Part shown: positions 27,595 to 60,976 of the stretch, piece after piece
Numbering within the stretch: the stretch's first letter is position 1
Layout of the letters: each line of letters begins with the position of its first letter
NCBI GenBank assembly: GCA_006738865.1
Contig: AP019701.1
Location: 4,026,001 to 4,090,000 of the forward strand
DNA: 64,000 nucleotides
Reading direction: 5' to 3'
From: Allostella sp. ATCC 35155
Lineage (GTDB): Bacteria > Pseudomonadota > Alphaproteobacteria > ATCC43930 > Allostellaceae
The notes under the pieces: generated by a model
The model's database searches: none
What the model was told of the DNA's origin: nothing
Seen by the model: the letters and a program-made list of their open reading frames with translations, nothing else
Translations under genes and position numbers: made by a program

Positions 27595-27604
27595 GGCGAC
27601 GGCG

Positions 27605-38858: not shown

Positions 38859-38983
38859 TTCCACGGCAGTCACTCCGTCGTCGCTCCTGCGTCCGTGCGG
38901 ATCCGGAGCATTGCTACGCACAGGGTATGCCATCCGGAGCCGTCATGCACCGGGCGCAGGCCGGCCATGCTCCGACGCCCGGT

Positions 38984-39011
38984 CACACGATCAGCGGCGC
39001 ACACGATCAGC
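38984..39011. repeat. 12 bp direct repeat across the end of dioxygenase copy 2
   Basis: CACACGATCAGC occurs at 38984-38995 and again at 39000-39011. The second copy contains the stop codon of dioxygenase copy 2. It may be a small duplication at the gene end, perhaps a scar of the event that made the two dioxygenase genes. Confidence 0.5.
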
Positions 39012-40170: not shown

Positions 40171-40254
40171 CGAAACGTGATCCTTCGCGCGGGGGATACA
40201 GTCGGTCCGGCGACGAGAGTGCACCCCACGGCCACCCCGTTCAAGCGATCAGAT

Positions 40255-45384: not shown

Positions 45385-46359
45385 ATGGCGCTGATCGGTG
45401 TCGAGAGCGTGCGGCGTGTCGCGATCGTGGGGGCCGGTACGATCGGCGCGAGCTGGGCCGCCTGGTTCCTCGCCAGGGGCTATGACGTCTGCGCGACCGA
45501 TCCCGCCCCGGACGGCGAAGCCTTCGCGCGCGGCTTCATCCGGCGCGCCTGGCCGACGCTGGAGCGCCTGGGCCTTGCCGCCGGCGCCGACCCGGACCGC
45601 CTGACCTTCACGACAGACGTCGAGGCATGCGTCCGCGGCGCCGACTTCGTGCAGGAGCAGGCGCCGGAGCGCGAGGCGCTGAAGCAGGAACTGCTGGCGC
45701 GGATCGACGCGGTCGTCGCGCCCGATCGCATCATCGCCTCCTCGACCTCCGGCTTCACGCCGTCGAGCCTGCAGTCGCGGATGACCCATCCGGGACGGCT
45801 GGTCGTCGGCCATCCGTTCAATCCCCCGCACCTCATCCCGCTGGTCGAGGTCGTCGGCGGCAAGGCAACCGACGAGGCCGCCATCCAGTGGGCGATCGCC
45901 TTCTACGAGCATGTCGGAAAGAAGACGATCCGCCTCCTCAAGGAGATCCCCGGCCATCTCGCCAACCGCCTGCAGAGCGCCTTGTGGCGGGAGGCCGTCC
46001 ACTGCATCGCCGAGGGCGTCGCCAGCGTCGAGGACACGGACAAGGCGATCGCCCACGGCCCCGGCCTGCGCTGGGCCATCATGGGGCCGACGCTGACCTT
46101 CTCGCTCGCCGGCGGCGAAGGGGGCATGCCGCACTTCCTCGACCATCTCGGCGAGTTCATGGAGACGCGCTGGGAGGAACTCGGCCGGCCGAAGCTTACG
46201 CCGGAGGTGCGGCGCCGGCTGGTCGAAGGCGTAGCGGAAGAGGCGGCCGGTCGTTCCATTCCGGACCTTGCGCGCGACCGCGACACCAAGCTGGTCGCGA
46301 TTCTCGAAGCCTTGCAGAAAGCTACAAGCGGAATTGGCGAAACCGACAAGCACTCATAA
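45385..46359 (+). CDS. lcdH: L-carnitine dehydrogenase-like 3-hydroxyacyl-CoA dehydrogenase family protein
   Basis: A 324-residue NAD-dependent dehydrogenase. The Rossmann motif is VAIVGAGTIGASWAAWFLARG near residue 12. The catalytic His stretch VVGHPFNPPHLIPLVEVVGG near residue 140 closely follows L-carnitine dehydrogenases, which oxidise carnitine to 3-dehydrocarnitine. 3-Hydroxybutyryl-CoA dehydrogenase is the alternative. The usual partner genes (3-keto acid cleavage enzyme, thioesterase) are absent, so the substrate assignment is moderate. Ends at 46359, just before a short palindrome. Confidence 0.7.
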   Translation: MALIGVESVRRVAIVGAGTIGASWAAWFLARGYDVCATDPAPDGEAFARGFIRRAWPTLERLGLAAGADPDRLTFTTDVEACVRGADFVQEQAPEREALKQELLARIDAVVAPDRIIASSTSGFTPSSLQSRMTHPGRLVVGHPFNPPHLIPLVEVVGGKATDEAAIQWAIAFYEHVGKKTIRLLKEIPGHLANRLQSALWREAVHCIAEGVASVEDTDKAIAHGPGLRWAIMGPTLTFSLAGGEGGMPHFLDHLGEFMETRWEELGRPKLTPEVRRRLVEGVAEEAAGRSIPDLARDRDTKLVAILEALQKATSGIGETDKHS

Positions 46360-47409: not shown

Positions 47410-48150
47410 ATGCCCGTCCAGCCGTCCGCCGCAGCCGTCGCCCAGCTCGCCCCCACCGGCACGCTCCGCGCGGCGATCAACCTCAGCAACTTCCTGCTCG
47501 TCACCGGACGCACGCCGGCGGGCGATCCCGAGGGCGTCTCGCCGTCGATGGCCAAGGCCATCGCCGACCGGCTCGGCGTCCCGGTGTCCTACGTGCCCTT
47601 CCCGCGCCCGGGCGAGCTCGCCGACGCGATCACCGACAATGTTTGGGATATCGGCCTCATCGGCGCCGAGCCGCAGCGGGCGGAGAAGATCGCCTTCACC
47701 GCCGCCTATTGCGAGATCGCCGCGACCTACCTCGTGCCGGCCGGCTCGCCCATCCGCACCCTCGACGAGGTCGACCGCCCCGGCGTGCGCATCGCCTCGA
47801 CCGCCCGCGCCGCCTACGACCTCTGGCTGGAGCGCAATATCCGCCACGCGACCGTCCTGCGCACCGAATCGCTGGATGCGGCCTGCGAGCTGTTCCTCTC
47901 CGACCGGCTGGACGTGCTCGCCGGCCTGCGGCCCCGCCTCCTCACCGACGTCGAGCGCATTCCCGGTGCGCGCATCCTCGACGGCAAGTTCATGGCGGTG
48001 CAGCAGGCGATCGGCAATGCCCGCGGCAACACCGCCGCCTCCGAATTCCTCGCCGCCTTCGTCGAGGAGGCGAAGGCGACCGGCCTCGTCGCCAGCCTGA
48101 TCGAGCGCTTCGGCGCCCACGGCCTCTCGGTCGCGCCGGCGGCCGGCTAG
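47410..48150 (+). CDS. Type-2 periplasmic-binding-fold protein lacking a signal peptide
   Basis: A 246-residue protein with the family 3 solute-binding fold: GTLRAAINLSNFLLV near residue 16, GVSPSMAKAIADRLGVPVSYVPF near 44, DIGLIGAEPQRAEKIAFTAAYCEI near 80. These proteins normally deliver amino acids to ABC permeases, but no hydrophobic N-terminal leader is seen from this start or from an upstream start at 47347, and no permease genes are adjacent. It may act as a cytosolic sensor or enzyme-like binding protein, or use a start I have missed. Confidence 0.72.
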   Translation: MPVQPSAAAVAQLAPTGTLRAAINLSNFLLVTGRTPAGDPEGVSPSMAKAIADRLGVPVSYVPFPRPGELADAITDNVWDIGLIGAEPQRAEKIAFTAAYCEIAATYLVPAGSPIRTLDEVDRPGVRIASTARAAYDLWLERNIRHATVLRTESLDAACELFLSDRLDVLAGLRPRLLTDVERIPGARILDGKFMAVQQAIGNARGNTAASEFLAAFVEEAKATGLVASLIERFGAHGLSVAPAAG

Positions 48151-48608
48151 AACAGCCGCGGATCGAGCCGAAACGGCTCCGCCGCGACGATGCGTATGTC
48201 CGCAGCCGCCGCATGGCGGTGGTTGATGACGACATTGACGTCCGGCGATCCGTCCAGCGGGACGATCGCGGACGGCACGCGCAACAGCGGTGCGTCGCGT
48301 GCCGCGTGCCAGCGATCACCCCTCGCCTGTGTCCATGCCCCCTGGCGACGCCAGTCCGGTGGCAGATCCCGAAGCGCGATCACCTCCGCCGCCAGAGCGT
48401 CCGGCGCCTCGTACCGGACCATCACGAGATCCGGCAGGAGGCGCGGATCCTCGACATGCACCAGCTTCTCGAGCAAGCAGAGCGCCGGCGAGGTTGCGCA
48501 GTAGGTGACCGGGCGACCCGCGATGTTCCAGCGGCCGTCGTGGAGGAGACCATAGCCGCCGTCGAAGGACAGCGCGTGCCGCGCCCCGGACAGGCGCCAG
48601 AGCAGCAT
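48147..48608 (-). CDS. RES-domain toxin (NAD-degrading family)
   Basis: A 153-residue RES toxin. The three residues that name the family are visible: Arg26 in DGRWNIAG, Glu47 in LCLLEKLVHV and Ser113 in RVPSAIVP, along with YCATSPALC. Known RES toxins (Xre-RES, MbcT) destroy NAD by phosphorolysis or hydrolysis. The ATG at 48608 overlaps the antitoxin stop by one base (TGATG), as expected for a coupled toxin-antitoxin operon. It appears intact. Confidence 0.85.
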   Translation of the reverse strand: MLLWRLSGARHALSFDGGYGLLHDGRWNIAGRPVTYCATSPALCLLEKLVHVEDPRLLPDLVMVRYEAPDALAAEVIALRDLPPDWRRQGAWTQARGDRWHAARDAPLLRVPSAIVPLDGSPDVNVVINHRHAAAADIRIVAAEPFRLDPRLF

Positions 48609-49042
48609 CAGGCGGCGGCACCCCAGGCGATCTTGGCGAGGATCGTCTCGATCAGCCGACCGCCTGCCTCGGTCTCGGCAAGATCGATCGGCCGTTCGCC
48701 GTCCAGTTCCGCAAGCGGACGACGAAGCCATATGTTTGCCTTGGCGACGTCGCCGAACGTGTCCTCCGCCAATGTCTGGATGCGCAGCACACGCACCGCC
48801 CGATCCGACTCTTCGACGGTGAGCGGCTGCTGCTTCTCCGCCCGGTGGCGCCGGGTGCGCTGCGGGATCACGAGGCGCTCGATCTCCTGCTCGGACAGCC
48901 CGGCCTGGGCAAGGCCGCGCAGCGCCAGGAGCGGCAGTCGGCGGCGGACCGCGAGCGCCAGGTCGGCCTGGGAATGCACATGCTGGCCGAGCACGGGGAA
49001 GCCGCCGAGCTTGCGAACCACTTCATCGACGATCGCCGACAT
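48608..49042 (-). CDS. Xre/MbcA/ParS-type antitoxin (DUF2384)
   Basis: A 144-residue protein: an N-terminal Xre-like helical part (SAIVDEVVRKLGGF, then a domain with ALRGLAQAGLSEQEIERLVIPQRT) and the C-terminal DUF2384 toxin-binding region (FGDVAKANIWLRRPLAELDGERPIDLAE). Start at 49042 with GAGGGG 7 bases ahead. It neutralises the RES toxin encoded immediately downstream and probably represses the pair through the palindromes just upstream. Confidence 0.85.
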   Translation of the reverse strand: MSAIVDEVVRKLGGFPVLGQHVHSQADLALAVRRRLPLLALRGLAQAGLSEQEIERLVIPQRTRRHRAEKQQPLTVEESDRAVRVLRIQTLAEDTFGDVAKANIWLRRPLAELDGERPIDLAETEAGGRLIETILAKIAWGAAA

Positions 49043-49110: not shown

Positions 49111-50268
49111 TCAGCCCGCCGGCGCCGGCTCGCTCGCCCCTCCCGCCTGGCGGCCGGCGAAGCGGCGGATGTGGAAGGGCTCGATCGGCGTGCTCGTGCG
49201 CCCGGTCGCGAGGAGTTCGGCCATCACCGCACCGACACCGGGGCCGAGTTGGAAGCCGTGGCCGCAGAAGCCGAAGGCGTGGAAGAGGCCCGGCGTGGTG
49301 CCGCTCTCGCCCATCACCGGGATGTCGTCCTCCAGGTAGCCCTCGACGCCGGTCCAGGTGCGGATCACCTGCACCCCGGCGAGCGCCGGCACGAACCGCA
49401 GCACCCGGCCCCACTGGGACATGGAGAGATCGGGCGTCGGCCGGGCCCGCGGCGGGTCGGTCTGGACCGGCCCGCGCAGGCCGCCGCCATAGACGACGTT
49501 GCCGCGCTTCACCTGGCGCAGATAGATGTTGGACGAGACACCCCCCAGCACCGGCTCCATGAAGTAGGGCAAGGGCTCGGTCACCGCCATCTGCGGCCCG
49601 CGCGCGACGATCGGCACGGGTTCGCCGAACGCCTCGGCGATGCGCGAGCCCCAGAAGCCGGCGCTGTTCAGCAGCACCTCGCCCCGCACCGCAAGCCCGG
49701 TCCTGGTCGTGACGCGGAAGCCGCTCGCCTCGCGCTGGATGTCGGCGACCTCGCAATGCTCGTGGATGACGGCACCAGCCCGCCTGGCGGCGCGCCCGAA
49801 GGCCGGCGCCACCAGCCGCGGGTTGGCGTGCCCGTCCTCCGGCGACAGCGAGGCGCCGACCACGTCGGGGCCCAGCCAGGGCCAGCGGCTGCGCATCGCG
49901 TTCTGGCCGAGCAGGTCGAGGTGGAGATCCCAGTCGCGCGCCTCGGCGACGTGCTTCTCGATCACCGCCATGTCGGCCTGGCTGTAGGCGACACGCAGGC
50001 CGCCGGTCGGCAGGAACTCGCAATCCTCCCCCAGCAGTTCCGGCAGCCGGCCCCAGATTTCGCGCGAGCGGTGGGATAGGGGAATCTGCGGCAGGAAGCG
50101 GCCCTGGCGGCGGACATTGCCGAAATTGACGCCGCTGGCGCCGGCGCCGACGAAGCCGCGCTCCAGCAGAACCACCGACTTGCCGTGCAGCGTGCGCAGG
50201 AAGAAGGCGGTCGCGGCGCCCATGATGCCGCCGCCGATGATGACGACGTCGTAGCGTTCCAGGCTCAT
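49111..50268 (-). CDS. FAD-dependent amine/amino-acid dehydrogenase subunit (DAO fold, HcnC/OoxB-like)
   Basis: A 385-residue DAO-family flavoprotein with the FAD dinucleotide motif DVVIIGGGIMGAATAFFL at residues 7-24, VLLERGFVGAGASG after it, and the C-terminal FHAFGFCGHGFQLGPGVG. It resembles the catalytic subunit of dye-linked opine, hydroxyproline or glycine dehydrogenases. An excellent ribosome site (GGAGG) precedes the ATG at 50268, which overlaps the stop of the middle subunit. With the two upstream genes it forms a three-component complex. The amine substrate cannot be read. Confidence 0.85.
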   Translation of the reverse strand: MSLERYDVVIIGGGIMGAATAFFLRTLHGKSVVLLERGFVGAGASGVNFGNVRRQGRFLPQIPLSHRSREIWGRLPELLGEDCEFLPTGGLRVAYSQADMAVIEKHVAEARDWDLHLDLLGQNAMRSRWPWLGPDVVGASLSPEDGHANPRLVAPAFGRAARRAGAVIHEHCEVADIQREASGFRVTTRTGLAVRGEVLLNSAGFWGSRIAEAFGEPVPIVARGPQMAVTEPLPYFMEPVLGGVSSNIYLRQVKRGNVVYGGGLRGPVQTDPPRARPTPDLSMSQWGRVLRFVPALAGVQVIRTWTGVEGYLEDDIPVMGESGTTPGLFHAFGFCGHGFQLGPGVGAVMAELLATGRTSTPIEPFHIRRFAGRQAGGASEPAPAG

Positions 50269-51641
50269 GCGCCGCCCTCCTGCGTCACCAGCGGCACCGG
50301 CTTGACCGGCGCCTGGCCGCGCAGGCGCATCGCCGCGGCCGGCGCCTCGCCGGCGGTGCCGGCGAGGATCGTCGCCGCCGACAGGCCGCAGTATCGGCCC
50401 TGGCAGCGGCCCATGCCGATGCGCGACAGGGCCTTGGCGCGGTTGACCTCTTTGGCGTCGAGGCCGGTGACGGCATGGCGGGCATCCCCGACGGTCACCC
50501 CCTCGCAGCGGCACAGCACCGTCTCCGGCGGGAGGTCCGCCAGGAGGTGGTGCGGCACCGGGAACACAGTCTGCATCGCCGTGCCCCAGCGCAAGCCCCG
50601 GTCGAGCCCGCGCCGCAGCGCCTCCATGCGCCCCTCTTCGACGGGGCGGCCGAGATCCTTCAGCGCCGCCAGCGCCGCCAGTTCGCCACCCATTTCGGCG
50701 AAGTCGGCGCCGCGCACGCGGCGGCCGTCGCCGGCGAGGTAGACGCCCTTCGCGTCCGACCGGCCGTCGGCGTCGGCCTGCGGCAGCCACTGGCGGGACT
50801 GTTCCTCGTAGGCGAAGCTGCAGCCGGCGAGATCGGCCAGCTGCGTCTCGGACTGCAGGCCGTATCCGAACCCGACCGCGCCGCACTCCGTGCGCCGCTC
50901 GGCGCCCGCCGCGGTGCGCCAGACGAGCGCCGTCACCGCCGCCTCGCCCTCCGCCCGCACCGGCTCCACCCCCTCGTGGATCGGAATGCCGCGCGCGCGC
51001 AGCCAGCTTAGATAGTACAGCCCCTTGAGGAAGGCCTGCGGCACCGCCAGCAACCGGCCGAGGGCGGCGAGCTTGGTAGCGAAGCGCGTCGTGTCGAGCA
51101 CCGCCGCGACCTTCGCCCCCGCCTTCGCATACTGGTAGGCGACGAGATAGAGCAGCGGGCCGGTGCCCAGGAACACGACCGGCTCGCCGATGGCGCAGCC
51201 CTGGTACTTCAGCGCGATCTGGGCGGCGCCCAGGGTATAGACGCCGGCCGTGGTCCAGCCGGGAAAGGGGATTACCCGGTCGCAGGCGCCGGTCGCCAGG
51301 ACCAGCGCGTCGAAGGGAACCGCCTCGGACTGGCCGCCCGCCGCCGGCAGCGCGTGCGCGACGCCGTCGCGCAGCGTCCAGACCAGCGTTTCCGGCCGGT
51401 GGTCGATCTGCCCCGCGAGCGCGTCGAAGGCGGCGTGCAGCGCATCGGCCCGCCCGGCCTCGAAGCCGTAGACGGCGCGCGAGGGGCGGCGGAAGGCCGG
51501 CGGCTGGCGGCGATAGATCTGGCCACCGCTGCGCGCCGCCTCGTCGAGCACGGTCGGGCGCATCCCGTGGCGGACGAAGGTTTCGGCGGCGCGGGTGCCG
51601 GCCGGCCCGGCGCCGACGATGACGATGCGGGGATCGGTCAT
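50265..51641 (-). CDS. NAD/FAD-binding subunit with BFD-like [2Fe-2S] domain (HcnB/OoxA-like)
   Basis: A 458-residue flavoprotein with two dinucleotide sites (IVIVGAGPAGTRAAETFV at the N terminus and VVFLGTGPLLYLVAYQYAKAG near residue 155). The C-terminal region is BFD-like with four cysteines (CRCEGVTVGDA then GRCQGRYCG). It matches the alpha subunits of octopine/hydroxyproline dehydrogenases and HcnB. Overlaps both neighbours by 4 bases. It probably shuttles electrons between the substrate subunit and the small ferredoxin-like subunit. Confidence 0.87.
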   Translation of the reverse strand: MTDPRIVIVGAGPAGTRAAETFVRHGMRPTVLDEAARSGGQIYRRQPPAFRRPSRAVYGFEAGRADALHAAFDALAGQIDHRPETLVWTLRDGVAHALPAAGGQSEAVPFDALVLATGACDRVIPFPGWTTAGVYTLGAAQIALKYQGCAIGEPVVFLGTGPLLYLVAYQYAKAGAKVAAVLDTTRFATKLAALGRLLAVPQAFLKGLYYLSWLRARGIPIHEGVEPVRAEGEAAVTALVWRTAAGAERRTECGAVGFGYGLQSETQLADLAGCSFAYEEQSRQWLPQADADGRSDAKGVYLAGDGRRVRGADFAEMGGELAALAALKDLGRPVEEGRMEALRRGLDRGLRWGTAMQTVFPVPHHLLADLPPETVLCRCEGVTVGDARHAVTGLDAKEVNRAKALSRIGMGRCQGRYCGLSAATILAGTAGEAPAAAMRLRGQAPVKPVPLVTQEGGA

Positions 51642-51940
51642 GGCTGCGCGCCGCTGCCGACCCAGCGCTCCAGCGGCGAGCGGGACAGCAGCTCCATGCC
51701 ATCCTCCGCCGGGGTCGAGCAGGCGCGGACGCGGGCGCCGTCCGGCCGCCACAGCCAGCAGTCCTGGCAGGCACCCATGAGGCAGAACCCCGCCCGCGGG
51801 CGCCGCTCGAACTCGTTGTCGCGCAGCCGGCGGCGGTCCGTCAGCACGGCAGTCAGCACCGTGTCGCCGGCGAGCCCGGTCACCGTCTCCCCGTCCAACG
51901 TCAATCGCACGATCGGGCGGTCCGTCTCCGCCACCCGCAT
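51638..51940 (-). CDS. Small [2Fe-2S] ferredoxin-fold subunit (HcnA/OoxX-like)
   Basis: A 100-residue protein with Cys53, Cys58 and Cys61 (GFCLMGACQDCW) and Cys74 (VRACSTPAE), the spacing of Fer2_4-type [2Fe-2S] subunits found at the N terminus of sarcosine oxidase alpha and in HcnA. The ATG at 51940 has AGGACAG ahead. First gene of the three-subunit dehydrogenase set; a 109-base gap without distinct elements separates it from the lyase gene upstream. Confidence 0.85.
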   Translation of the reverse strand: MRVAETDRPIVRLTLDGETVTGLAGDTVLTAVLTDRRRLRDNEFERRPRAGFCLMGACQDCWLWRPDGARVRACSTPAEDGMELLSRSPLERWVGSGAQP

Positions 51941-52049
51941 GAGCTGTCCTGCTCTCGTCACGCCCTGGCTCTCCCCGGGGCGAAGCCACCGCCGCCCGCG
52001 CCGGCAGTGTTTGCCCCCGCGGCCGGCATTGTCCATACCGATCGCGGGC

Positions 52050-52814
52050 TCAGTCCGGGTCGCGGTACTCCATGTTCTCCTCGACCACCGCCCAGATGTG
52101 CCGGGCCGAGGGCTCCCGGCGCTCCTCCTGGACATGGGCGAGGAGGCCGCCACAGCGCGACACCAGCGCAACGCCGCGGAACATGTCCGCCGGCAGCCCG
52201 ATCTCCAGCAGCAGCGCGGCCACGGCGCCCGTCGCGTTGATCGTCTGGTGCCGGCCGGCCGCCGCGTCGAGCGCGATGTTGAGCCGCTCGAGGAGGGCGA
52301 TGTGGTGACCGGCTACACCCTGTTCGCGCGCGAAGGCGAAGAGCCTGGGCGTGCGCGGGTCGTCGGGCTTGTGGAAGGGATGACCGAATCCGGGCAACCG
52401 CTTGCCGGCGGCGCGATGCTCGGCGACGACGCCACGGCAGAACGCGTCGGCGTCGCCGCCCGCCGCGATCCCGCGCGAGAGGATCGCCGCGCACCCTTCC
52501 ATGGTGCCGACGAAGACGTCGCCCACCACCGTCAGCCCGGCCGCCACCGCCACCTGCATCTGGTTCGGCACGCTGTCGGTCACCAGCCGCGCGATGAGCG
52601 AGGAGGGCGTGATGCCGTGCTCCATCAGCGTCACCAGGCAGGCATCGAGGATCCGTGCCTCGCCGGCTGCCGGAAAGCGCCCGGCTAGGTTGAAATAGAG
52701 CATCTCGGTGAAGCCGTAGCGGCCGATCACCTCCTCCACCAGGTCGAGGCCGCGCACGGTGATCGACGCGGCGTCGGAGGTGGCGATCCAGGTCTTCATG
52801 CGGGGCTCGGCCAT
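52050..52814 (-). CDS. Short citrate-synthase-family lyase (citryl-CoA lyase-like)
   Basis: A 254-residue protein, much shorter than citrate synthase (about 430) and close to stand-alone citryl-CoA lyases. The active-site region GKRLPGFGHPFHKPDDPRTPRLF and the Gly-rich GVALVSRCGGLLAHVQEE are conserved. Such enzymes cleave citryl-CoA-type 3-hydroxyacyl-CoA esters to acetyl-CoA and a 2-oxo acid. A perfect ribosome site (AAGGAGGAACGCC) drives the ATG at 52814. It is 17 bases downstream of the CoA ligase, which could make its thioester substrate. The true substrate is unknown. Confidence 0.78.
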   Translation of the reverse strand: MAEPRMKTWIATSDAASITVRGLDLVEEVIGRYGFTEMLYFNLAGRFPAAGEARILDACLVTLMEHGITPSSLIARLVTDSVPNQMQVAVAAGLTVVGDVFVGTMEGCAAILSRGIAAGGDADAFCRGVVAEHRAAGKRLPGFGHPFHKPDDPRTPRLFAFAREQGVAGHHIALLERLNIALDAAAGRHQTINATGAVAALLLEIGLPADMFRGVALVSRCGGLLAHVQEERREPSARHIWAVVEENMEYRDPD

Positions 52815-52831
52815 GGCGTTCCTCCTTCGGA

Positions 52832-54385
52832 TCAGACGCGGCGCGCCTGCCCCGCCCAGTAGCGCTCGCGCACGTCCCGCTTCAGCACCTTGCCGACCGG
52901 GCTGCGCGGCAGGACCTCCCAGAAATCGACCGACTTCGGCGCCTTCATCCCGCCGAGCCGCTCGCGGCAGAGCTGGACGAGTTCGCCCTCGCTCGCCGAC
53001 ATGCCGGCACGCAGCTCGACGACCGCCTTGACCGCCTCGCCCCACTTCTCGTCCGGAACGCCGATGACCGCGCAGTCCTTCACCGCGGGGTGGGACCAGA
53101 CGACCTGCTCGATCTCGCTCGGGAAGATGTTGAAGCCGCCGCTGATGATGACGTCGCGCTCGCGGTCGACGATGTAGAAATAGCCGTCCTCGTCGCGATA
53201 GCCGACGTCGCCCGTGTGGTGCCAGCCGAAGCGGGACGCCTTCGCCGTCGCCTCCGGGTTCTTGTAGTAGCCCTTCATCACGAGGTTCGAGCGGATGACC
53301 AGTTCCCCGCGCTCGCCGGCCGGCAGCAGGCGCCCCTCGGAATCCATGATCTCGACCTGGACGAAGGGCGTTGGGCGGCCGCAGCTCCACAGGCGCCGGG
53401 CCAGCACCGGATCGTCCGACAGGACATGCTCGGCCGGCGGCAGGATGGTGCAGAAGAAGGGCGCCTCCGCCTGCCCGTAGGCCTGGGCCATGACCGGCCC
53501 GAAGGCGGCCACGGCCTGTCGCAGCTTGTCGACCGACATCGGCGCGCCGGCATAGATGATGTGGCGCAGCGAGGAATAGTCGTGCCGGGCGAGCGCCGGG
53601 CTGTCGAGCAGCATGTAGATCATGGTCGGCGTCAGGAACATCGTCGTGACGCGATGGCGTTCGATGCACTCGAGGATGGTCGCCGGGTCGGCGCGCGGCA
53701 GGATGATGGTGTGCCCGCCATGGATCATGGCGGCGAAGGCCAGCGTGCCCGAGGCGTGGCTCATCGGGGCAGCCGCCAGATGTACCGGCCGCGGGCCGGG
53801 CGGCAGGGTCGAGAAGAGGCAGGCGAAGAGGGTCTCGTAGTTCTGGTTGGTGATCATCACGCCCTTGGAGGGGCCGGTGGTCCCGCCGGTGCTGCGGATC
53901 GCGACCACCGTGTCCGGTCCCTGGGCGATGTCCATCGGATCGTCCGGGAAGCCGGCCGCCCAGCGGTCGAGGCCGGGAGCGAGCGGCGTCGGGCCGTCGA
54001 TCGCCACCATCCCGCGGAGCGGCTGTGCCAGCCCCGGCAGCACCGCCGCGACCTCGTCCTCCAGCGCGGAATGGTGGAAGAGGAAGGTCGCGTCGTTGCT
54101 GGCCAGCGCGTGCGCGATCTCGGGCTGGGCGTAGCGGGCGTTGAGCGGCAGCCAGACCGCCCCCGCCCGCAGGATGCCCAGCACCGGCTCGAACGCGCCG
54201 AGGCAGTTCGGCGTCAGCGTCGCGACGACGTCGCCCGGTCCGACGCCGGCTGCCCGGAGGCCGTGCGCGATGCGGTGCGAGGCCGAACGGACCTCGCGAT
54301 AGCTCCGGCTGTGCTGCCGGTCCGAGAAGCAGGGGCCGTCCGGCGCGATGGCCGCGCCGCGGTCGAAGAAATCGATGAGACGCAC
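52832..54385 (-). CDS. AMP-dependent acyl-CoA ligase
   Basis: A 517-residue ligase of the medium/short-chain or aryl type. P-loop region IRSTGGTTGPSKGVMITN near residue 165 (with an unusual extra Gly), YGQAEAPFF near 300, GWHHTGDVGYRDEDGYFYIVDRERD and the C-terminal lysine PRSPVGKVLKR. It converts a carboxylic acid to its CoA ester. It sits 13 bases downstream of dctP and just before the citryl-CoA-lyase-like gene, so it most likely activates the acid brought in by the TRAP transporter. Confidence 0.88.
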   Translation of the reverse strand: MRLIDFFDRGAAIAPDGPCFSDRQHSRSYREVRSASHRIAHGLRAAGVGPGDVVATLTPNCLGAFEPVLGILRAGAVWLPLNARYAQPEIAHALASNDATFLFHHSALEDEVAAVLPGLAQPLRGMVAIDGPTPLAPGLDRWAAGFPDDPMDIAQGPDTVVAIRSTGGTTGPSKGVMITNQNYETLFACLFSTLPPGPRPVHLAAAPMSHASGTLAFAAMIHGGHTIILPRADPATILECIERHRVTTMFLTPTMIYMLLDSPALARHDYSSLRHIIYAGAPMSVDKLRQAVAAFGPVMAQAYGQAEAPFFCTILPPAEHVLSDDPVLARRLWSCGRPTPFVQVEIMDSEGRLLPAGERGELVIRSNLVMKGYYKNPEATAKASRFGWHHTGDVGYRDEDGYFYIVDRERDVIISGGFNIFPSEIEQVVWSHPAVKDCAVIGVPDEKWGEAVKAVVELRAGMSASEGELVQLCRERLGGMKAPKSVDFWEVLPRSPVGKVLKRDVRERYWAGQARRV

Positions 54386-54398
54386 GGCCCCGCTGCCC

Positions 54399-55418
54399 TC
54401 ACTTGCCCGCCGCCAGCGCCTCGGAGAACATCTTCAGCGCCTCCGAGCCCGGCTTGCCACGCCGATCGAGGCCTGCCGCCCAGTCGCGCCGGGCTTGCTG
54501 GTAGACCTCGTCGAGAACCTTCTGGTCCTCCGGACCGATCCGCGAGATCGTCATGCCCTGCTGCTTGAAGGTCTCGTAGCTCTTGGCGACGTCGGCGTCG
54601 GTCATCTTGCAGACGCGGCGGGTGGTGGCGTCGCCGACCTCCATGATCGCCTTCTGGACGTCGGCCGGCAGCTTCTTCCAGCGCGCCTCGTTGATGGCAT
54701 AGGTCGTGGCGATCCCGGCGAGCGATGCACCGGACGTCACGCTCTTGATCAGCCCCTCGAGCTTGTAGGAGGTGACGGTCGGTACCGGGAAGACGATGCC
54801 GTCGACGGTGCCGCGCGACAGGGATTCGCGAATCTCGGGCGCCGTCAGGCGAACCGGGACGGCTCCCAGGTTGCGCAGGGTGATGTCGAGCGCGCCGCCG
54901 ACCGACCGGATCTTGCGGCCCTTCATGTCCTCCAGCCGGATCGCGCCCTCCTTCGACATGAACAGTTCGTAGGGCGGATTGACGTAGCTGAACACGACCC
55001 GCACACCGCTGGGCTGGAACTCGTTCTTTGCGAGCCATCCGTCCCGCGCCGACTTCCAGAAGGCGAGCGTGCCCTCGCAGGAGGAGGCGAAGCTGCCCGG
55101 CAGGTCGACGACCCCGGACAGGGGCAGCTTGTCGGAGATGTAGGCCGGGACGATGAGCGCGATGTCGACGACGCCGCTCTGCGTCAGGGCCAGCATGTCC
55201 TTGGCCTTCCCGACCTGCTCGGCCGGGAAGTACTCGAACTTGACCCGGCCGTTCGTCGCCTTGGTGACCTCCTCCATGAAGTAGTGGGTGCCGTACTTCG
55301 CGAGGAAGTGGGTTGGCGGCAGGTTGTCCGCCAGCCGCAGGGTGATCGGGTCGGCCGCGAGCGCAGCGCCCGCCGCCAGCATCGCCGAGGCCGCCAAGGC
55401 GGCACCGCAGTAGCGCAT
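54399..55418 (-). CDS. dctP: TRAP transporter substrate-binding protein DctP
   Basis: A 339-residue periplasmic protein with a Sec signal peptide (residues 1-22, AAGAALAAD). The DctP body begins ITLRLADNLPPTHFLAKYGT, with the conserved carboxylate-binding Arg region (DMKGRKIRSVGGALDITLRNLGAVPVRL). DctP binds organic acids for the DctQM permease. The start at 55418 is preceded by GGGAAG. The gene lies 40 bases after iclR; a promoter (TTGACA) is embedded in the end of iclR and the regulator's palindrome sits between them. Confidence 0.9.
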   Translation of the reverse strand: MRYCGAALAASAMLAAGAALAADPITLRLADNLPPTHFLAKYGTHYFMEEVTKATNGRVKFEYFPAEQVGKAKDMLALTQSGVVDIALIVPAYISDKLPLSGVVDLPGSFASSCEGTLAFWKSARDGWLAKNEFQPSGVRVVFSYVNPPYELFMSKEGAIRLEDMKGRKIRSVGGALDITLRNLGAVPVRLTAPEIRESLSRGTVDGIVFPVPTVTSYKLEGLIKSVTSGASLAGIATTYAINEARWKKLPADVQKAIMEVGDATTRRVCKMTDADVAKSYETFKQQGMTISRIGPEDQKVLDEVYQQARRDWAAGLDRRGKPGSEALKMFSEALAAGK

Positions 55419-55433
55419 CGTTTCTTCCCTTCT

Positions 55434-55449
55434 GTTCACATATATGAAC
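55434..55449. promoter_or_regulatory. IclR-type operator before dctP
   Basis: GTTCACATATATGAAC has perfect 5 bp arms (GTTCA/TGAAC) around 6 AT-rich bases. It is in the 40-base iclR-dctP gap, about +14 to +29 from the inferred start of transcription, so a bound regulator would block RNA polymerase. The same arms and ATATGAACG core recur before dctQ. Confidence 0.65.
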
Positions 55450-55458
55450 GTTATTCCT

Positions 55459-56277
55459 TTATTCGCATGATGATGGCGAGCGGCGGCGCTGCTTGTCAAC
55501 CGGCGGCCGATGGCCCAGCACCTGCGACAGCCCCCGGGCGGCCTCGATCGCGGCGGTGCGGTAGAGCCGGCTGTTCTGGCGGATGCGTTCACCGAGGGAG
55601 GCGACCGCCAGCGCCGCCACGACACGCCCCTCGCCGTCGAACACCGGCGCGGCGACCGCGGCGCCGCCATCGGTGATCTCGGCGATCGACTGGGACCAGC
55701 CCTCGCGCCGCACCCGATCGAGGCGCCGGCGGATCTCCGCCGGGTCGGTCGCCGTGCTCGGCGTGTACGCACGGAAGTCCGTCGTGCGGAGATAGCGCTC
55801 GCGCCACTCCTCGCCCTGGAAGGCGAGCAGGGCGCGCCCGGCAGCCGAGCAGTAGAGCGGGCGCTCCTCGCCGATTCGGGCGATGAACCGCACCTGGTTC
55901 GTGCTCTCGATCTGGTCGATGTAGCTGGCGAGCGGGGCATCCTCCTTGAGCACCGCCAGGATCACCGTCTCTCCGGTCGCTTCCCACAGGCTGCGCATGA
56001 AGGGCCGCGCGAGCGTCGGCAGGCGCCGCCGCGCCATCACCGCGGCGGCGAGGCCGTACATCGCCGGGCCGAGGAAGTGCCGGTCCCCCTCGCGACTGGC
56101 GAAGCCCTGCGCCGCCAGCGCGCGCAGCAGCACCAGCAGGCTGCTCTTCGGCGCCTGCAGTTCCCTGGCCAACTCCGACAGGGTCGCCCCGTTCTCGGCT
56201 GCCGCCAGATGCGCCACGATCTGCATCACCCGGGTCAGGGACCGGGGGCCCGACGCTTCGCCCGCTTCACGCTCCAT
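55459..56277 (-). CDS. IclR-family transcriptional regulator
   Basis: A 272-residue regulator: N-terminal winged helix (RSLTRVMQIVAHLAAAENGATLSELAREL, KSSLLVLLRAL) and C-terminal ligand-binding domain (ATGETVILAVLKEDAPLASYI, LYCSAAGRALLAFQ, GGAAVAAPVFDGEGRVVAALAV). The start at 56277 has GAGGTGCGG ahead; a longer upstream frame is unconserved. It lies between the two arms of the TRAP/CoA cluster and very likely controls both through the paired palindromes, responding to the imported acid or its CoA product. Confidence 0.9.
   Translation of the reverse strand: MEREAGEASGPRSLTRVMQIVAHLAAAENGATLSELARELQAPKSSLLVLLRALAAQGFASREGDRHFLGPAMYGLAAAVMARRRLPTLARPFMRSLWEATGETVILAVLKEDAPLASYIDQIESTNQVRFIARIGEERPLYCSAAGRALLAFQGEEWRERYLRTTDFRAYTPSTATDPAEIRRRLDRVRREGWSQSIAEITDGGAAVAAPVFDGEGRVVAALAVASLGERIRQNSRLYRTAAIEAARGLSQVLGHRPPVDKQRRRSPSSCE
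55470..55499 (-). promoter_or_regulatory. Predicted dctP promoter inside the end of iclR
   Basis: On the minus strand a perfect -35 TTGACA (55499-55494) is followed after 18 bases by CATCAT (55475-55470; 4 of 6 to TATAAT). It reads toward dctP from within the last codons of iclR and ends about 20 bases before the palindromic operator. Confidence 0.45.
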
Positions 56278-56309
56278 CCGCACCTCGTCATGGCTGCCGG
56301 CGATTCGGC

Positions 56310-56341
56310 TTGACGCTCGAATCCACCACTCGCAAGATAAT
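56310..56341 (+). promoter_or_regulatory. Predicted dctQ promoter
   Basis: TTGACG (56310-56315) is followed by AAGATAAT (56334-56341), giving a -35/-10 pair with an 18-20 base spacer, in an AT-rich pocket. The palindromic operator begins about 18 bases downstream, matching the arrangement before dctP. Confidence 0.4.
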
Positions 56342-56358
56342 TTACATAAGTGCATATC

Positions 56359-56374
56359 GTTCAGAAATATGAAC
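56359..56374. promoter_or_regulatory. IclR-type operator before dctQ
   Basis: GTTCAGAAATATGAAC has the same 5 bp arms and spacing as the site before dctP, and here extends by one C/G pair to a 6 bp arm. It lies in the divergent iclR/dctQ region, 22-37 bases before the dctQ start. Confidence 0.65.
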
Positions 56375-56395
56375 GATGGACCAAGGGAGGGAGCG

Positions 56396-56980
56396 ATGGA
56401 CGGACCCGCGCGCGGCGGAGCCGGGGCGCTTCTCGGCCGGGCCGACCGGGCGATCGCCGCCGTCGAGCGCGTCTGGAGGCTGGCGGCCTCGGCGGCGCTG
56501 GCGGCGATCATGCTGATCGTCGCAGCGGACGTGCTGCTGCGTTACGCCTTCAATTCGCCCCTCTCCTGGGCTTTCGACCTCATCTCGCTCTACCTGATGG
56601 CGGCGCTCTTCTTCCTGGCCCTGGCCGATACCCAGCGCCACCATGGCCATGTGGCGGTCGACATCGTCCAGTATCGGCTGTCGGACCGCACGCGCCATCT
56701 CTGCCAGGCCGCGGCGCTGGCGGCGACGGCCGCCGCGTTCGCGGTGATCTTGGTGCTCGGTGCCGGAAAGGCGTGGGAGGCCTGGGCCGCCGGCGACGTG
56801 CTGGAGGGCGCGTTCGCGTGGCCGACCTGGATCGCCGCGGCGCTGGTGCCGCTGGGCGTCGCGCTGCTGCTCGCCCGGCTGCTGCTGTCGACGATCGGCC
56901 ACGGGCTCTCGGCCCTGACCGGACGATCCCTGATCGCCCTGCCGCCGCTGTCCGGCCGGGACGAGATGGGCGGATGCTGA
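56396..56980 (+). CDS. dctQ: TRAP transporter small membrane subunit DctQ
   Basis: A 194-residue membrane protein with four helices (AALAAIMLIVAADVLLRYAF, SLYLMAALFFLALADTQRHH, AALAATAAAFAVILVLGAG, ALVPLGVALLLARLLLSTI), the DctQ pattern including the RYAFNSPLSWAFD turn. Start ATG 56396 with AGGGAGGGAG ahead; an ATG at 56369 lies inside the operator and is less likely. Overlaps dctM by 7 bases. First gene of the plus-strand arm. Confidence 0.85.
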   Translation: MDGPARGGAGALLGRADRAIAAVERVWRLAASAALAAIMLIVAADVLLRYAFNSPLSWAFDLISLYLMAALFFLALADTQRHHGHVAVDIVQYRLSDRTRHLCQAAALAATAAAFAVILVLGAGKAWEAWAAGDVLEGAFAWPTWIAAALVPLGVALLLARLLLSTIGHGLSALTGRSLIALPPLSGRDEMGGC

Positions 56981-58260
56981 CGCTCGCCACCCTCGGGCTG
57001 CTGGGCGTCCTGCTCGGCATCGGCGCCCCGGTCGCCTTCGCGATGCTGGTGACGGGGACGGTCGGCCTCTACACGATCGGCGGCCTGCCGATGGTGCTCG
57101 GCATCCTGCAGACCGCGCCCCTCAGCACCGTCAGCTCGTACGAGCTGATCTCGGTCCCGATGTTCATCCTGATGGCCGAGTTCGTCATCGTTTCGGGCAT
57201 CGCCGACAGCCTGTTCCTGGCGGCGGCCGCCTGGGTCGGCCGGCTTCCGGGCGGGCTCGCCATGGCCACCGCGCTCGCCGGCGCGGGCTTCGGCGCCATC
57301 TCCGGTTCGAGCACGGCCTCGGCGGCGACGCTGTCGGCCACTTCGATCCCGGCGATGCTGCGGCAGGGATACGAGCCCCGCCTCGCCTGCGGCGTGGTCG
57401 CGATCTCGGGCACGCTCGCGATGCTGATCCCGCCCAGCGTGGCACTCATCATCTATGGCCTGATCGCGGACGTCAGCATCGGCCATCTCCTGATCGGCGG
57501 CGTGCTGCCCGGCATTCTCGTGACCGCCGCCATCATGCTGACCATCCTCGCGCTGGTCTGGCAGGATCCGGCACGCGCACCGCCGGGCGAGCGCCTCAGC
57601 CTGCGCGAGAAGTTCGTCGCGCTCCGCGTGGTCGGACCCATGCTGATCCTGCTGATGGCGGTGACGGGGATCATCTACACCGGCGTGGCGACGCCGACGG
57701 AGGCGGCGGGCATCGGCGCCTTCGGCGCCTTCGTGCTGGCGCTGCGGTCCGGCCGGCTGAACCGGAACGCGCTGGCGCACGCACTGAAGCGGGCGGCGCA
57801 CGCGACCTGCATGATCCTGATGATCATCATGGGCGCGCATGTCTTCGGCTACTTCTTCACCTTCACCCAGACGACGCAGGATCTGGTGCGCTGGGTCGCC
57901 GACCTCGGGCTCTCGCCCTACCTGGTCATCGCGCTGCTGATCGTCGGCTATCTCGTCCTCGGCTGCCTGATGGACCAGATCGCGATCCTGATCCTGACGG
58001 TGCCGGTGGTGCTGCCGCTCGTCGTCAGCCTCGGCTTCGACCCGGTGTGGTTCGGCGTCCTCGTCATCGTCACGGCCGAGGTCGGCATGGTGACGCCGCC
58101 GGTCGGACTGAACGTCTTCGTGGTCGCCCGCTATGCCCGCCGGCCGCTCGGCGAGATCTTCGCCGGCATCTGGCCGCACGTCTTCGCCCACCTGATCGTG
58201 ATCGCCCTGCTCGTCGCCTTCCCGCAGATCGTCCTGTGGCTGCCCTCGCACATGCAATGA
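56974..58260 (+). CDS. dctM: TRAP transporter large permease DctM
   Basis: A 428-residue permease with about 12 helices and the DctM signatures SVPMFILMAEFVIVSGIAD and GAISGSSTASAATLSATSIPAM, LIPPSVALIIYGLI, and a C-terminal MVTPPVGLNVFVV. It takes up an organic acid with sodium symport, using DctP and DctQ. It overlaps dctQ and the CoA-transferase (ATGA), so the four plus-strand genes form one operon. Confidence 0.92.
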   Translation: MLTLATLGLLGVLLGIGAPVAFAMLVTGTVGLYTIGGLPMVLGILQTAPLSTVSSYELISVPMFILMAEFVIVSGIADSLFLAAAAWVGRLPGGLAMATALAGAGFGAISGSSTASAATLSATSIPAMLRQGYEPRLACGVVAISGTLAMLIPPSVALIIYGLIADVSIGHLLIGGVLPGILVTAAIMLTILALVWQDPARAPPGERLSLREKFVALRVVGPMLILLMAVTGIIYTGVATPTEAAGIGAFGAFVLALRSGRLNRNALAHALKRAAHATCMILMIIMGAHVFGYFFTFTQTTQDLVRWVADLGLSPYLVIALLIVGYLVLGCLMDQIAILILTVPVVLPLVVSLGFDPVWFGVLVIVTAEVGMVTPPVGLNVFVVARYARRPLGEIFAGIWPHVFAHLIVIALLVAFPQIVLWLPSHMQ

Positions 58261-59483
58261 CCGCCCTCCGCCGCAATCTTCCGGGCCCGCTCGCGGGCGC
58301 CCGCATCCTCGACCTGACGACAGTCCTGGCCGGGCCCTTCGCCACCCATCTCCTCGCCGACCAGGGCGCCGACGTCGTCAAGGTCGAGGCCCCCGGCGGC
58401 GACATCACCCGCACCGTCGGCCGCTCGCACGAGCCCGGCATGGCCTCGATCTTCCAGCACATCAACAAGAACAAGCGCAGCCTCGTGCTCGACCTGAAGC
58501 GGCCGGAAGGGCGCGCGGCGCTGCTGCGGCTGGCGGCGGATTGCGACGCGTTCGTCTTCAACATGCGCGCCGATGCGATGGACCGGCTCGGTCTCGGCCC
58601 GACCGCCCTGCGCGCCGCCAACCCCCGCATGGTCTATTGCGGCTTCGCCGGATACGGCCGGGCCGGCGCCTATGCCGGCCGCCCCGCCTATGACGACCTG
58701 ATCCAGGGCCTGACCGCGATCCCGGACCTCGTGGCGCGCGCCGGCGGCGGCGAGCCGCGCTATGTCCCGATGTCGATGGCCGACCGCATCGTCGGCCTCT
58801 ATGGCGCCAATGCGCTTCTCATGGCCCTCTTCCGGCAGGCGCGCACCGGCGAGGGCAGCGCCGTCGAAGTGCCGATGTTCGAGGCGATGGCCCACTTCGT
58901 CCTGGTCGAGCACATGTTCTATCGCAGCTTCGAGCCCGCCCTGGGCGCCGCCGCCAACCCGCGCGGGCTCGATCCGAACCGCAAGCCCCTGCCGACCCGC
59001 GACGGGCACGTCTGCCTGCTGCCCTACAGCGACCGCCAGTGGCACGACCTGTTCGGCCTGCTCGGCCGGCCCGACATGCAGGCAGACCCGCGCTTCGCGA
59101 CCTTCTCCGGCCGGCTCGAGCACGTCCGCGAGCTCTACGCCTTCCTCGCCGCGGCCGCGCGCGAGGAGACGACGGCCCACTGGCTGGAGCGGTTCGCCGC
59201 GGCGGACATCCCGGCCGCGCCGATGAACAGCCTCGAGGAACTGCTGGACGACCCGCACCTTGCCGAAGCCGGGTTCTGGCAGCCCCTGGAAAAGGCCGAC
59301 GGCACCCGCTTCATCCACATGGATTCGCCGCTCGGCTGGCAGGAATGGCCGCGCGGAACGCTCGCGCTCGAACCTGCGCCGCTCCTCGGCCAGCACAGCG
59401 TGGAGATCCTGGCCGAGGCCGGATTTTCGCCCGAGGAGATCGCCGCCCTCGCCCGGGATGGCGTGACCCGGGTGGCGGCATGA
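58257..59483 (+). CDS. CaiB/BaiF class III CoA-transferase
   Basis: A 408-residue class III CoA-transferase. N-terminal RILDLTTVLAGPFATHLLADQGADVVKVEAPGGD-type region, KNKRSLVLDLKRPEGRA, and a probable catalytic Asp176 in MSMADRIVGLYGANA, which forms the acyl-enzyme anhydride in this family. It moves CoA between an acid and an acyl-CoA. It overlaps dctM by 4 bases and is followed by an enoyl-CoA hydratase, so it likely gives an alternative or second activation step in the pathway. Confidence 0.9.
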   Translation: MTALRRNLPGPLAGARILDLTTVLAGPFATHLLADQGADVVKVEAPGGDITRTVGRSHEPGMASIFQHINKNKRSLVLDLKRPEGRAALLRLAADCDAFVFNMRADAMDRLGLGPTALRAANPRMVYCGFAGYGRAGAYAGRPAYDDLIQGLTAIPDLVARAGGGEPRYVPMSMADRIVGLYGANALLMALFRQARTGEGSAVEVPMFEAMAHFVLVEHMFYRSFEPALGAAANPRGLDPNRKPLPTRDGHVCLLPYSDRQWHDLFGLLGRPDMQADPRFATFSGRLEHVRELYAFLAAAAREETTAHWLERFAAADIPAAPMNSLEELLDDPHLAEAGFWQPLEKADGTRFIHMDSPLGWQEWPRGTLALEPAPLLGQHSVEILAEAGFSPEEIAALARDGVTRVAA

Positions 59484-60184
59484 GCCGCCCGCTCTGCCGC
59501 GTCGCCGAGGACGGCGCCGTCCTGACGCTGACGCTCGACCGTCCCGACCGGCGCAACGCCCTCGACGAACCCCTCCTCCTCGAGCTGGTCGCGGCGCTGG
59601 AGGCGGCCGCCCCGCCGCGGGTGCTGGTCCTGACCGGGGCCGGGAACGCGTTTTGCGCCGGCGCCGACCTCGGGCCGCTCAAGGGCATCACCGATCCGGA
59701 GGAACGGCGCCGCGCCTTCGCGCCGCACGCCGTCCGCATCTCCGAACTGATCGGCCGGGTGATGCTGCTGCTCGCCGATCCGGGACGCATCAGCATCGCC
59801 GCCGTCAACGGGCCGGCCGTGGGCGGCGGCTGGATCCTCGCCATGGGGTGCGACTTCCGCATCGCCGCCGACGGCGCCCGGTTCTGGTTTCCCGAGATCG
59901 AGCTCGGGCGCGCGATCGGCGAGGCCTCCAACGACCTGCTGACCGCCTATGCCGGGCCGGCGCTGGCGCGCGAGATCATCATGCTGGCGCGGCGCTACGA
60001 GGCGGCCGAACTGCTGGCGCTGCGGCTGCTCAACCAGGTGGTGCCGGCGGGCGACCTGGCCGCGAGCGCGGCCGCCATGGCGGGGCGCCTCGCGGGCATG
60101 GCGCCGGACGCCCTCGCCACCGTCAAGCGGCGGATCGTGGCCGCCGGTCTCGCCGGCGCCCTCGCCAAGCCGTGGGGCCGCTGA
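59480..60184 (+). CDS. Enoyl-CoA hydratase/isomerase family protein
   Basis: A 234-residue crotonase, a little shorter than usual (about 255). Oxyanion-hole segments GNAFCAGADLGPL and GPAVGGGWILAMGCDFRIAA; Glu in FPEIELG and another in LAREIIMLARR occupy the places of the two crotonase glutamates, so hydratase activity is plausible. It overlaps the CoA-transferase by 4 bases and ends the plus-strand operon. In the proposed pathway it would add water to an unsaturated CoA ester. Confidence 0.85.
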   Translation: MSRPLCRVAEDGAVLTLTLDRPDRRNALDEPLLLELVAALEAAAPPRVLVLTGAGNAFCAGADLGPLKGITDPEERRRAFAPHAVRISELIGRVMLLLADPGRISIAAVNGPAVGGGWILAMGCDFRIAADGARFWFPEIELGRAIGEASNDLLTAYAGPALAREIIMLARRYEAAELLALRLLNQVVPAGDLAASAAAMAGRLAGMAPDALATVKRRIVAAGLAGALAKPWGR

Positions 60185-60187
60185 CGC

Positions 60188-60976
60188 TCATGCGCCGCGC
60201 CGCCGCCGGCCCGACATCGTCGACAGCACCAGCAGGAACGAGACGGCGGTCATCAGGGTGCTGATGGCGGCGATGGTCGGGTCGATCTCGTCGCGCAGCG
60301 CGGTGAACATGCGCTTGGTCAGCGGCTGGTACTGCCCGCCCGAGACGAAGAGGCCAACGATCGTCTCGTCGATCGCCGAGATGAAGGCGAAGACCGCGCC
60401 GGCGAGGACGCTCGGTCGGATCTGCGGCAAGGTGACGGCGAGGAAGCTGCGCAGCCGGTTCATGCCGAGGCTGCGCGCCACCATCTCCTGCGTCGGGTCG
60501 AAGCCGCGCAGGCCCGCCACCACCGAGGTCACGACATAGGGCAGGCCGAGCATGACGTTGGCCAGCACCAGCCCCGGGATCGTCGCGATCAGGCCGAGCT
60601 TGACGTAGACGAAGAAGATGCCGACCGCGACGATGATGATCGGCACCATCAGGGGCAGCATCAGCAGGAGGTGCACCGCCCGCATCAGGCGCAGGCGGGA
60701 ATGGACGATCGCATAGGCCGCAGCGACGCCCATCGGGGTCGCGATGAGGACGGTCGCGGCCCCGACGATCAGGCTGACCTGGGTCGCCTGCATCCAGTTG
60801 CGGCTGCCGAAATATTCGAAGTACCAGCGCAGCGACCAGGAGGGCGGGGGAAAGGTGAGGAAGCGCGTGCCCGAGAAGGACATCGGCACGATGATCAGCA
60901 CCGGGATCATCAGGTAGGCCAGGACCAGCACGACGAAGACGCCGAGCGCCAGCCGACCGGGCGAGAGCCGCCTCAT
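60188..60976 (-). CDS. Polyamine/spermidine-type ABC transporter permease (PotC-like)
   Basis: A 262-residue permease with six helices (GVFVVLVLAYLMIPVLIIVP first) and an EAA loop EMVARSLGMNRLRSFLAVTLPQ. PotC-type members have the SFSGTRFLTFPPPSWSLRWY pattern, seen here. The ATG at 60976 overlaps the PotB-like stop. Convergent with the hydratase gene with only 3 bases between the stops. Confidence 0.85.
   Translation of the reverse strand: MRRLSPGRLALGVFVVLVLAYLMIPVLIIVPMSFSGTRFLTFPPPSWSLRWYFEYFGSRNWMQATQVSLIVGAATVLIATPMGVAAAYAIVHSRLRLMRAVHLLLMLPLMVPIIIVAVGIFFVYVKLGLIATIPGLVLANVMLGLPYVVTSVVAGLRGFDPTQEMVARSLGMNRLRSFLAVTLPQIRPSVLAGAVFAFISAIDETIVGLFVSGGQYQPLTKRMFTALRDEIDPTIAAISTLMTAVSFLLVLSTMSGRRRRGA

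Follow-up and report, generated by a model that had tools for sequence, protein, structure and literature searches.

The present analysis concerns a cluster of transport and coenzyme A (CoA)-ester genes in the genome of Allostella sp. ATCC 35155, within a stretch of 64,000 nucleotides (contig AP019701.1, positions 4,026,001 to 4,090,000) that is hereafter called the window. The cluster consists of two arms diverging around a local IclR-family regulator gene, iclR (55459-56277, minus strand; Pfam IclR_C/HTH_IclR), which heads the minus-strand arm and whose best NCBIfam model, BhcR, scored below its cut-off (151 bits vs 350). On the same strand it is followed by dctP, encoding the substrate-binding protein of a tripartite ATP-independent periplasmic (TRAP) transporter (54399-55418; Pfam DctP, NCBIfam TRAP_S1 above cut-off), by the gene of an AMP-forming acyl-CoA ligase with a GTG start (52832-54385; Pfam AMP-binding and AMP-binding_C), and by the gene of a citrate-synthase-fold enzyme of 254 residues that resembles citryl-CoA lyases (52050-52814; NF004868, 313.6 bits, cut-off 193) and is referred to below as the lyase; the successive gaps are 40, 13, and 17 bp. 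The plus-strand arm comprises dctQ for the small TRAP permease (56396-56980; Pfam DctQ), dctM for the large permease (56974-58260; TIGR00786, 328 bits, cut-off 268), a CaiB/class III CoA-transferase gene (58257-59483; Pfam CoA_transf_3, 348 bits), and a crotonase-family gene (59480-60184; Pfam ECH_1), with overlapping stop and start codons throughout. All three TRAP components (DctP, DctQ, and DctM) are present at the locus. Every open reading frame named in the original prediction, including the 254-residue lyase, was recovered in the family assigned to it; the range it gave, 49111-60184, also takes in an HcnABC/opine-dehydrogenase-like trio that it did not list.

The two arms had been grouped as one unit, and this grouping was strengthened by a palindrome that is common to both arms and confined to this locus in the genome. 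One 16-bp, operator-like copy precedes dctQ and another precedes dctP, so that each arm has its own: GTTCAGAAATATGAAC (56359-56374) lies in the divergent gap between iclR and dctQ as the core of a 22-bp palindrome (56356-56377), and GTTCACATATATGAAC (55434-55449; 16 bp) lies in the gap between iclR and dctP. Allowing at most one mismatch, the pattern occurred only at these two sites in the 64-kb window, vs 0.32 expected from shuffles, and a narrower pattern retrieved only the same two sites from the whole 5.34-Mb genome (reversed control, 0); the pattern was composed after the sites had been seen, and the counts therefore show uniqueness and are no blind test. The pattern was found again ahead of dctQ and ahead of dctP in a related cluster (L111) of genome G099, which belongs to another family of the same class, and one copy is present in the dctP/iclR gap of a cluster (L112) in genome G243. 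Because the palindrome is unique to the locus and occupies the same two positions in the G099 cluster, both arms very probably represent one regulon, which a single IclR protein probably controls.

The AlphaFold2 model of the lyase (predicted local distance difference test, pLDDT, 93.9) shows a citrate-synthase fold of ~260 residues with citryl-CoA lyases as the best structural matches, the closest solved structure being citryl-CoA lyase of Hydrogenobacter thermophilus (6hxp; template modeling score, TM, 0.86; Z 25; 29–30% identity). The active-site columns were located by alignment with 6hxp and with three proteins of the citrate-synthase family encoded in the same genome. According to this alignment, the lyase has retained only one member of the citrate-synthase catalytic triad: the equivalent of His274 is Phe101, and that of Asp375 (Asp1026 of human ATP citrate lyase) is Thr195, in a column where 6hxp, 2c6x, and the citrate synthases of this genome have Asp or Glu. 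The equivalents of His320, Arg329, and Arg401 are kept as His145, Arg154, and Arg220. In an alignment of 85 sequences, Thr195 is retained in 83 of the 84 relatives covering that column, position 101 is predominantly Phe (F 64, Y 9, H 7, L 4, N 1), and His145, His148, Asn193, Asp152, and Arg154 are invariant. Judged from these residues, the lyase cannot run the usual Asp375/His274 chemistry, and the citryl-CoA-lyase-type cleavage put forward in the original prediction is left unsupported. The invariant or near-invariant His145, His148, Asn193, and Thr195 are candidate replacements for the lost catalytic residues. Since the residues on the oxo-acid side (the His320, Arg329, and Arg401 equivalents) are kept, the enzyme probably still works on a hydroxyacyl-CoA or oxoacyl-CoA. 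In human ATP citrate lyase the Asp is essential, with a catalytic versus an allosteric role under debate (PMC10115795).

A phylum-wide search yielded three groups of related sequences: one with the intact triad (GDVHGG / NIDGA), an intermediate one (VLGSAE / NVN or NVS), and that of the window lyase (FVGTMEG / NATGA). Maximum-likelihood inference with the two trait columns removed placed the Asp-less sequences together on the same side of a well-supported branch (98/91), consistent with the Asp having been lost once. Members of this clade occur in Proteobacteria, Myxococcota, and Actinomycetota, with matches also on haloarchaeal plasmids. In a sister clade (L207-L217) the catalytic Asp is replaced by Asn or Ser, not Thr, and the first His by Leu. 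NCBIfam models named "citryl-CoA lyase" matched all 42 sequences scanned; as applied to the Asp-less clade, this name is a prediction, and the open-access literature yielded neither an experimental study of a clade member nor a relevant study on catabolic citryl-CoA lyases.

Gene neighborhoods were counted at 40 lyase loci with full flanks. In 31 of them, a gene of CaiB or AMP-ligase type was located no more than 2.5 kb from the lyase, compared with 8 of 40 at a distance of 6–8.5 kb, and a CoA-ester role of the lyase is therefore likely. Genes for MaoC proteins, acyl-CoA dehydrogenases, and Bug receptors (tripartite tricarboxylate transporter type) were also commoner close to the lyase. Recurrent layouts include LysR-CaiB-MaoC-MaoC-lyase-Bug (Advenella and others) and ligase-lyase (Thalassobaculum, Myxococcota), and the ligase adjoins the lyase also in a genome of the same genus (G003). 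A plasmid of Rhodococcus sp. DMU1 carries the order acyl-CoA dehydrogenase-MaoC-short-chain dehydrogenase/reductase-lyase-TRAP, and on a Sulfitobacter faviae plasmid dctPQM is followed a few genes further by a CoA-transferase gene adjoining the lyase. The combination of TRAP transport, CoA activation, and an Asp-less lyase is a repeated theme. As for the exact seven-gene set, whose co-occurrence in other genomes had been suggested as a check, no second case was detected among 77 lyase loci, 289–398 genomes per class or phylum search, and plasmids. The original prediction was unaware of any published pathway matching this gene set, and none was found in the open-access literature either. One Myxococcota lyase locus (L055:12276-15341) has a single open reading frame of 1022 residues in which an iron-containing alcohol dehydrogenase is fused to a homogentisate-dioxygenase-like protein, which suggests that the clade may also be used after aromatic ring cleavage.

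The two putative CoA-activating enzymes of the locus look functional from their motifs. Inspection of the ligase sequence revealed both the A3 motif (TGGTTGPSKG) and the PxGKxxK lysine, and alignments to solved CoA-transferases showed that the CaiB-type protein has a full-length fold and the catalytic Asp (AYDDLIQG). Alignments of the crotonase show Ile in place of the first catalytic Glu (GGGWILAMGCD), the second Glu retained (FPEIELG), and no C-terminal region, so that the Glu pair of hydratases (Glu144 and Glu164 of the rat enzyme) is incomplete; the role of enoyl-CoA hydratase assigned to this protein beforehand thus finds no support. A frameshift was considered as the cause of the short reading frame and rejected, as the other two frames downstream hold no crotonase C-terminus. 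No relative at an E-value of 1e-38 or better was present in 385 alphaproteobacterial genomes, and no close relative in the plasmid collection; the crotonase of the G243 cluster likewise lacks the first Glu. A convergent ABC permease gene ends just 3 bp from the truncated gene (60184-60188), and this junction may mark a rearrangement.

Based on these results, we consider it fairly probable that the block is a substrate-responsive regulon through which a carboxylic acid, possibly a branched dicarboxylate, is taken up and degraded in a CoA-dependent manner. According to this scheme, one IclR protein would bind the two palindromic operators and control both arms together, DctPQM would import the acid, its CoA ester would be made by the AMP-forming ligase, the CaiB transferase, or both, and the atypical crotonase together with the citrate-synthase-fold enzyme would process it, the direction and the product of the lyase step being conjectural. 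The importer and CoA-ester catabolism of the original prediction are thereby retained, with the genes as one unit, the arms very probably co-regulated, and the ligase motifs and CaiB Asp intact; the hydration and cleavage chemistry is not. A branched (C5-type) dicarboxylate is a plausible substrate, because TRAP relatives in G243 and G286 stand beside genes for CitE, acetyl-CoA (AcCoA)-transferase-type, acyl-CoA dehydrogenase, and MmgE/PrpD proteins, which are of the itaconate/methylsuccinate type (PMC12290011). Nothing points to aconitate in particular. Orthologs of the ligase, held by 29 of the 385 genomes, gave no clue to the substrate, as the examined neighbors were unrelated, and the nearest solved DctP structures were too distant to serve as one.

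On a broader scale, we tentatively suggest, at somewhat less than even confidence, that the large "citryl-CoA lyase" clade is a distinct family which lost the Asp/His enolizing pair once and performs a new CoA-ester reaction in aerobic organic-acid breakdown, the locus representing one such pathway. Several points weigh against the interpretation of the locus given above. The operator function of the palindromes is something that we infer, with a pattern composed post hoc, and the crotonase gene may be decaying. The G099 cluster has TRAP, IclR, ligase, and CaiB genes but neither lyase nor crotonase, which means that the transporter does not require the lyase. The contexts of the lyase clade are, moreover, so many and so different that the neighbors fix no substrate.

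In the route initially envisaged, activation of an unsaturated di- or tricarboxylate follows its import, the crotonase then adds water, and the lyase splits the product into acetyl-CoA and a 2-oxo acid; this would amount to an itaconate pathway with a citrate-synthase-fold lyase replacing the CitE-type enzyme. It gains from the conservation of the oxo-acid-side residues and from the G243 cluster, where a CitE-type lyase gene occurs with TRAP, IclR, CaiB, crotonase, and AcCoA-transferase-type genes. It gains likewise from a TRAP relative in G286 (L113) that stands with MmgE/PrpD, acyl-CoA dehydrogenase, and CaiB genes, again itaconate/methylsuccinate-type genes (PMC12290011). Itaconyl-CoA hydratase is, however, of the MaoC type, and the window cluster has a crotonase only; nor does it contain a CitE/RipC-type (S)-citramalyl-CoA lyase, the seven HpcH/HpaI matches of the same genome all being located elsewhere. 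In view of these absences, of the replacement of two of the three catalytic residues in the lyase, and of the loss of the first Glu in the crotonase, we regard this route as unlikely. On one plasmid, furthermore, a lyase of the citrate-synthase type occurs together with an annotated CoA ester lyase, and the two may therefore not be simple substitutes.

It is similarly doubtful that the citrate-synthase-fold protein is no C-C lyase at all and instead hydrolyses acyl-CoA, carries CoA, or serves the ligase or transferase as an allosteric partner, with the acid activated and oxidized by ordinary CoA-ester chemistry. That one clade has lost the counterparts of Asp375 and His274 is in line with this possibility, as is the ligase gene adjoining the lyase in many loci, and citrate synthase itself hydrolyses citryl-CoA. 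In its favor, too, a non-catalytic, allosteric role has been proposed for the citrate-synthase-homology module of human ATP citrate lyase (PMC10115795). On the other hand, His145, Arg154, and Arg220 vary little or not at all, suggesting a working small-ligand site, and the clade is also found beside CaiB genes without a ligase.

The trio downstream of the lyase, whose membership in the unit is uncertain, is encoded on the minus strand and consists of an HcnA-like [2Fe-2S] protein (51638-51940; Pfam Fer2_4), an HcnB-like FAD/NAD(P) oxidoreductase with a BFD-like [2Fe-2S] domain (50265-51641; Pfam Pyr_redox_2, weak Fer2_BFD), and an HcnC/SoxB-like FAD amine or amino acid oxidase (49111-50268; Pfam DAO, 241 bits). 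That the lyase works with this oxidase trio on a nitrogen-containing substrate (an opine or N-substituted amino acid), the deaminated product passing to the CoA enzymes, appears very improbable: the trio shares the strand of the lyase and follows it after 109 bp without a terminator-like site in between, and stop and start codons overlap within it, but the 109-bp gap has no palindrome and none of 77 related loci has an HcnA- or HcnB-like gene near the lyase.

Some other genes of the window may be mentioned. A RES-domain toxin/Xre-MbcA-ParS antitoxin pair adjoins the cluster (48147-49042, minus strand). A LeuC-type 3-isopropylmalate dehydratase large subunit above its cut-off (27575-28999, plus) and a lyase of the PrpB/PEP-mutase family that falls short of the PrpB cut-off (32716-33603, minus) possibly form a second organic-acid module. 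Two tandem, clearly similar TauD/TfdA-type dioxygenase genes (37698-38933 and 39007-40224, minus) lie beside oligopeptide-type ABC transporter genes, and a 3-hydroxyacyl-CoA dehydrogenase-family protein (45385-46359, plus) is nearest to L-carnitine dehydrogenase, below the cut-off for that enzyme.

If the Asp-less clade has new chemistry, "citryl-CoA lyase" annotations would be wrong in many heterotroph genomes and catabolic plasmids, the gene would be unsafe as evidence for the reductive tricarboxylic acid (TCA) cycle, and a new reaction would be added to one of the best-studied enzyme folds. As the putative regulon is compact and has a dedicated regulator and two likely operators, its inducing substrate should be findable by a reporter.

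Among the related TRAP clusters, that of G099 has dctM and dctQ, iclR, dctP, and the ligase gene in the same arrangement (identities of 73–74% for dctM, 68% for the ligase, 59–61% for dctP, and 48–50% for iclR), and differs also in an adjoining second TRAP set and cupin gene. The G243 cluster, which also has an IclR gene, is similar in dctM (62%), dctP (45%), CaiB (40%), and crotonase (34–35%), whereas genes of CitE-type lyase, acyl-CoA dehydrogenase, nitronate-monooxygenase-like, and AcCoA-transferase type replace the ligase and the citrate-synthase-type lyase. The itaconate/methylsuccinate cluster ict-ich-ccl-mcd-msi encodes a CoA transferase, itaconyl-CoA hydratase, citramalyl-CoA lyase, acyl-CoA dehydrogenase, and MmgE/PrpD isomerase (PMC12290011). 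The window cluster resembles it in the grouping of CoA activation, a hydratase-type gene, and a C-C lyase for small organic acids; however, its lyase has the citrate-synthase fold instead of being CitE-type, its hydratase candidate is a crotonase instead of a MaoC-type protein, and it combines a class III CoA-transferase and an AMP-ligase with TRAP import and IclR control. With the citryl-CoA lyase of H. thermophilus and the citryl-CoA lyase module of ATP citrate lyase, the window lyase shares the fold over its whole length and the His320, Arg329, and Arg401 equivalents, but it has Phe101 and Thr195 and stands in a catabolic context in heterotrophs, not in the reductive TCA cycle. Overall, the locus is probably a CoA-ester catabolic cluster of a known sort that is new in its composition, and what stands out in it is the lyase, from a branch of the citrate-synthase fold that is widespread and probably carries the wrong name.

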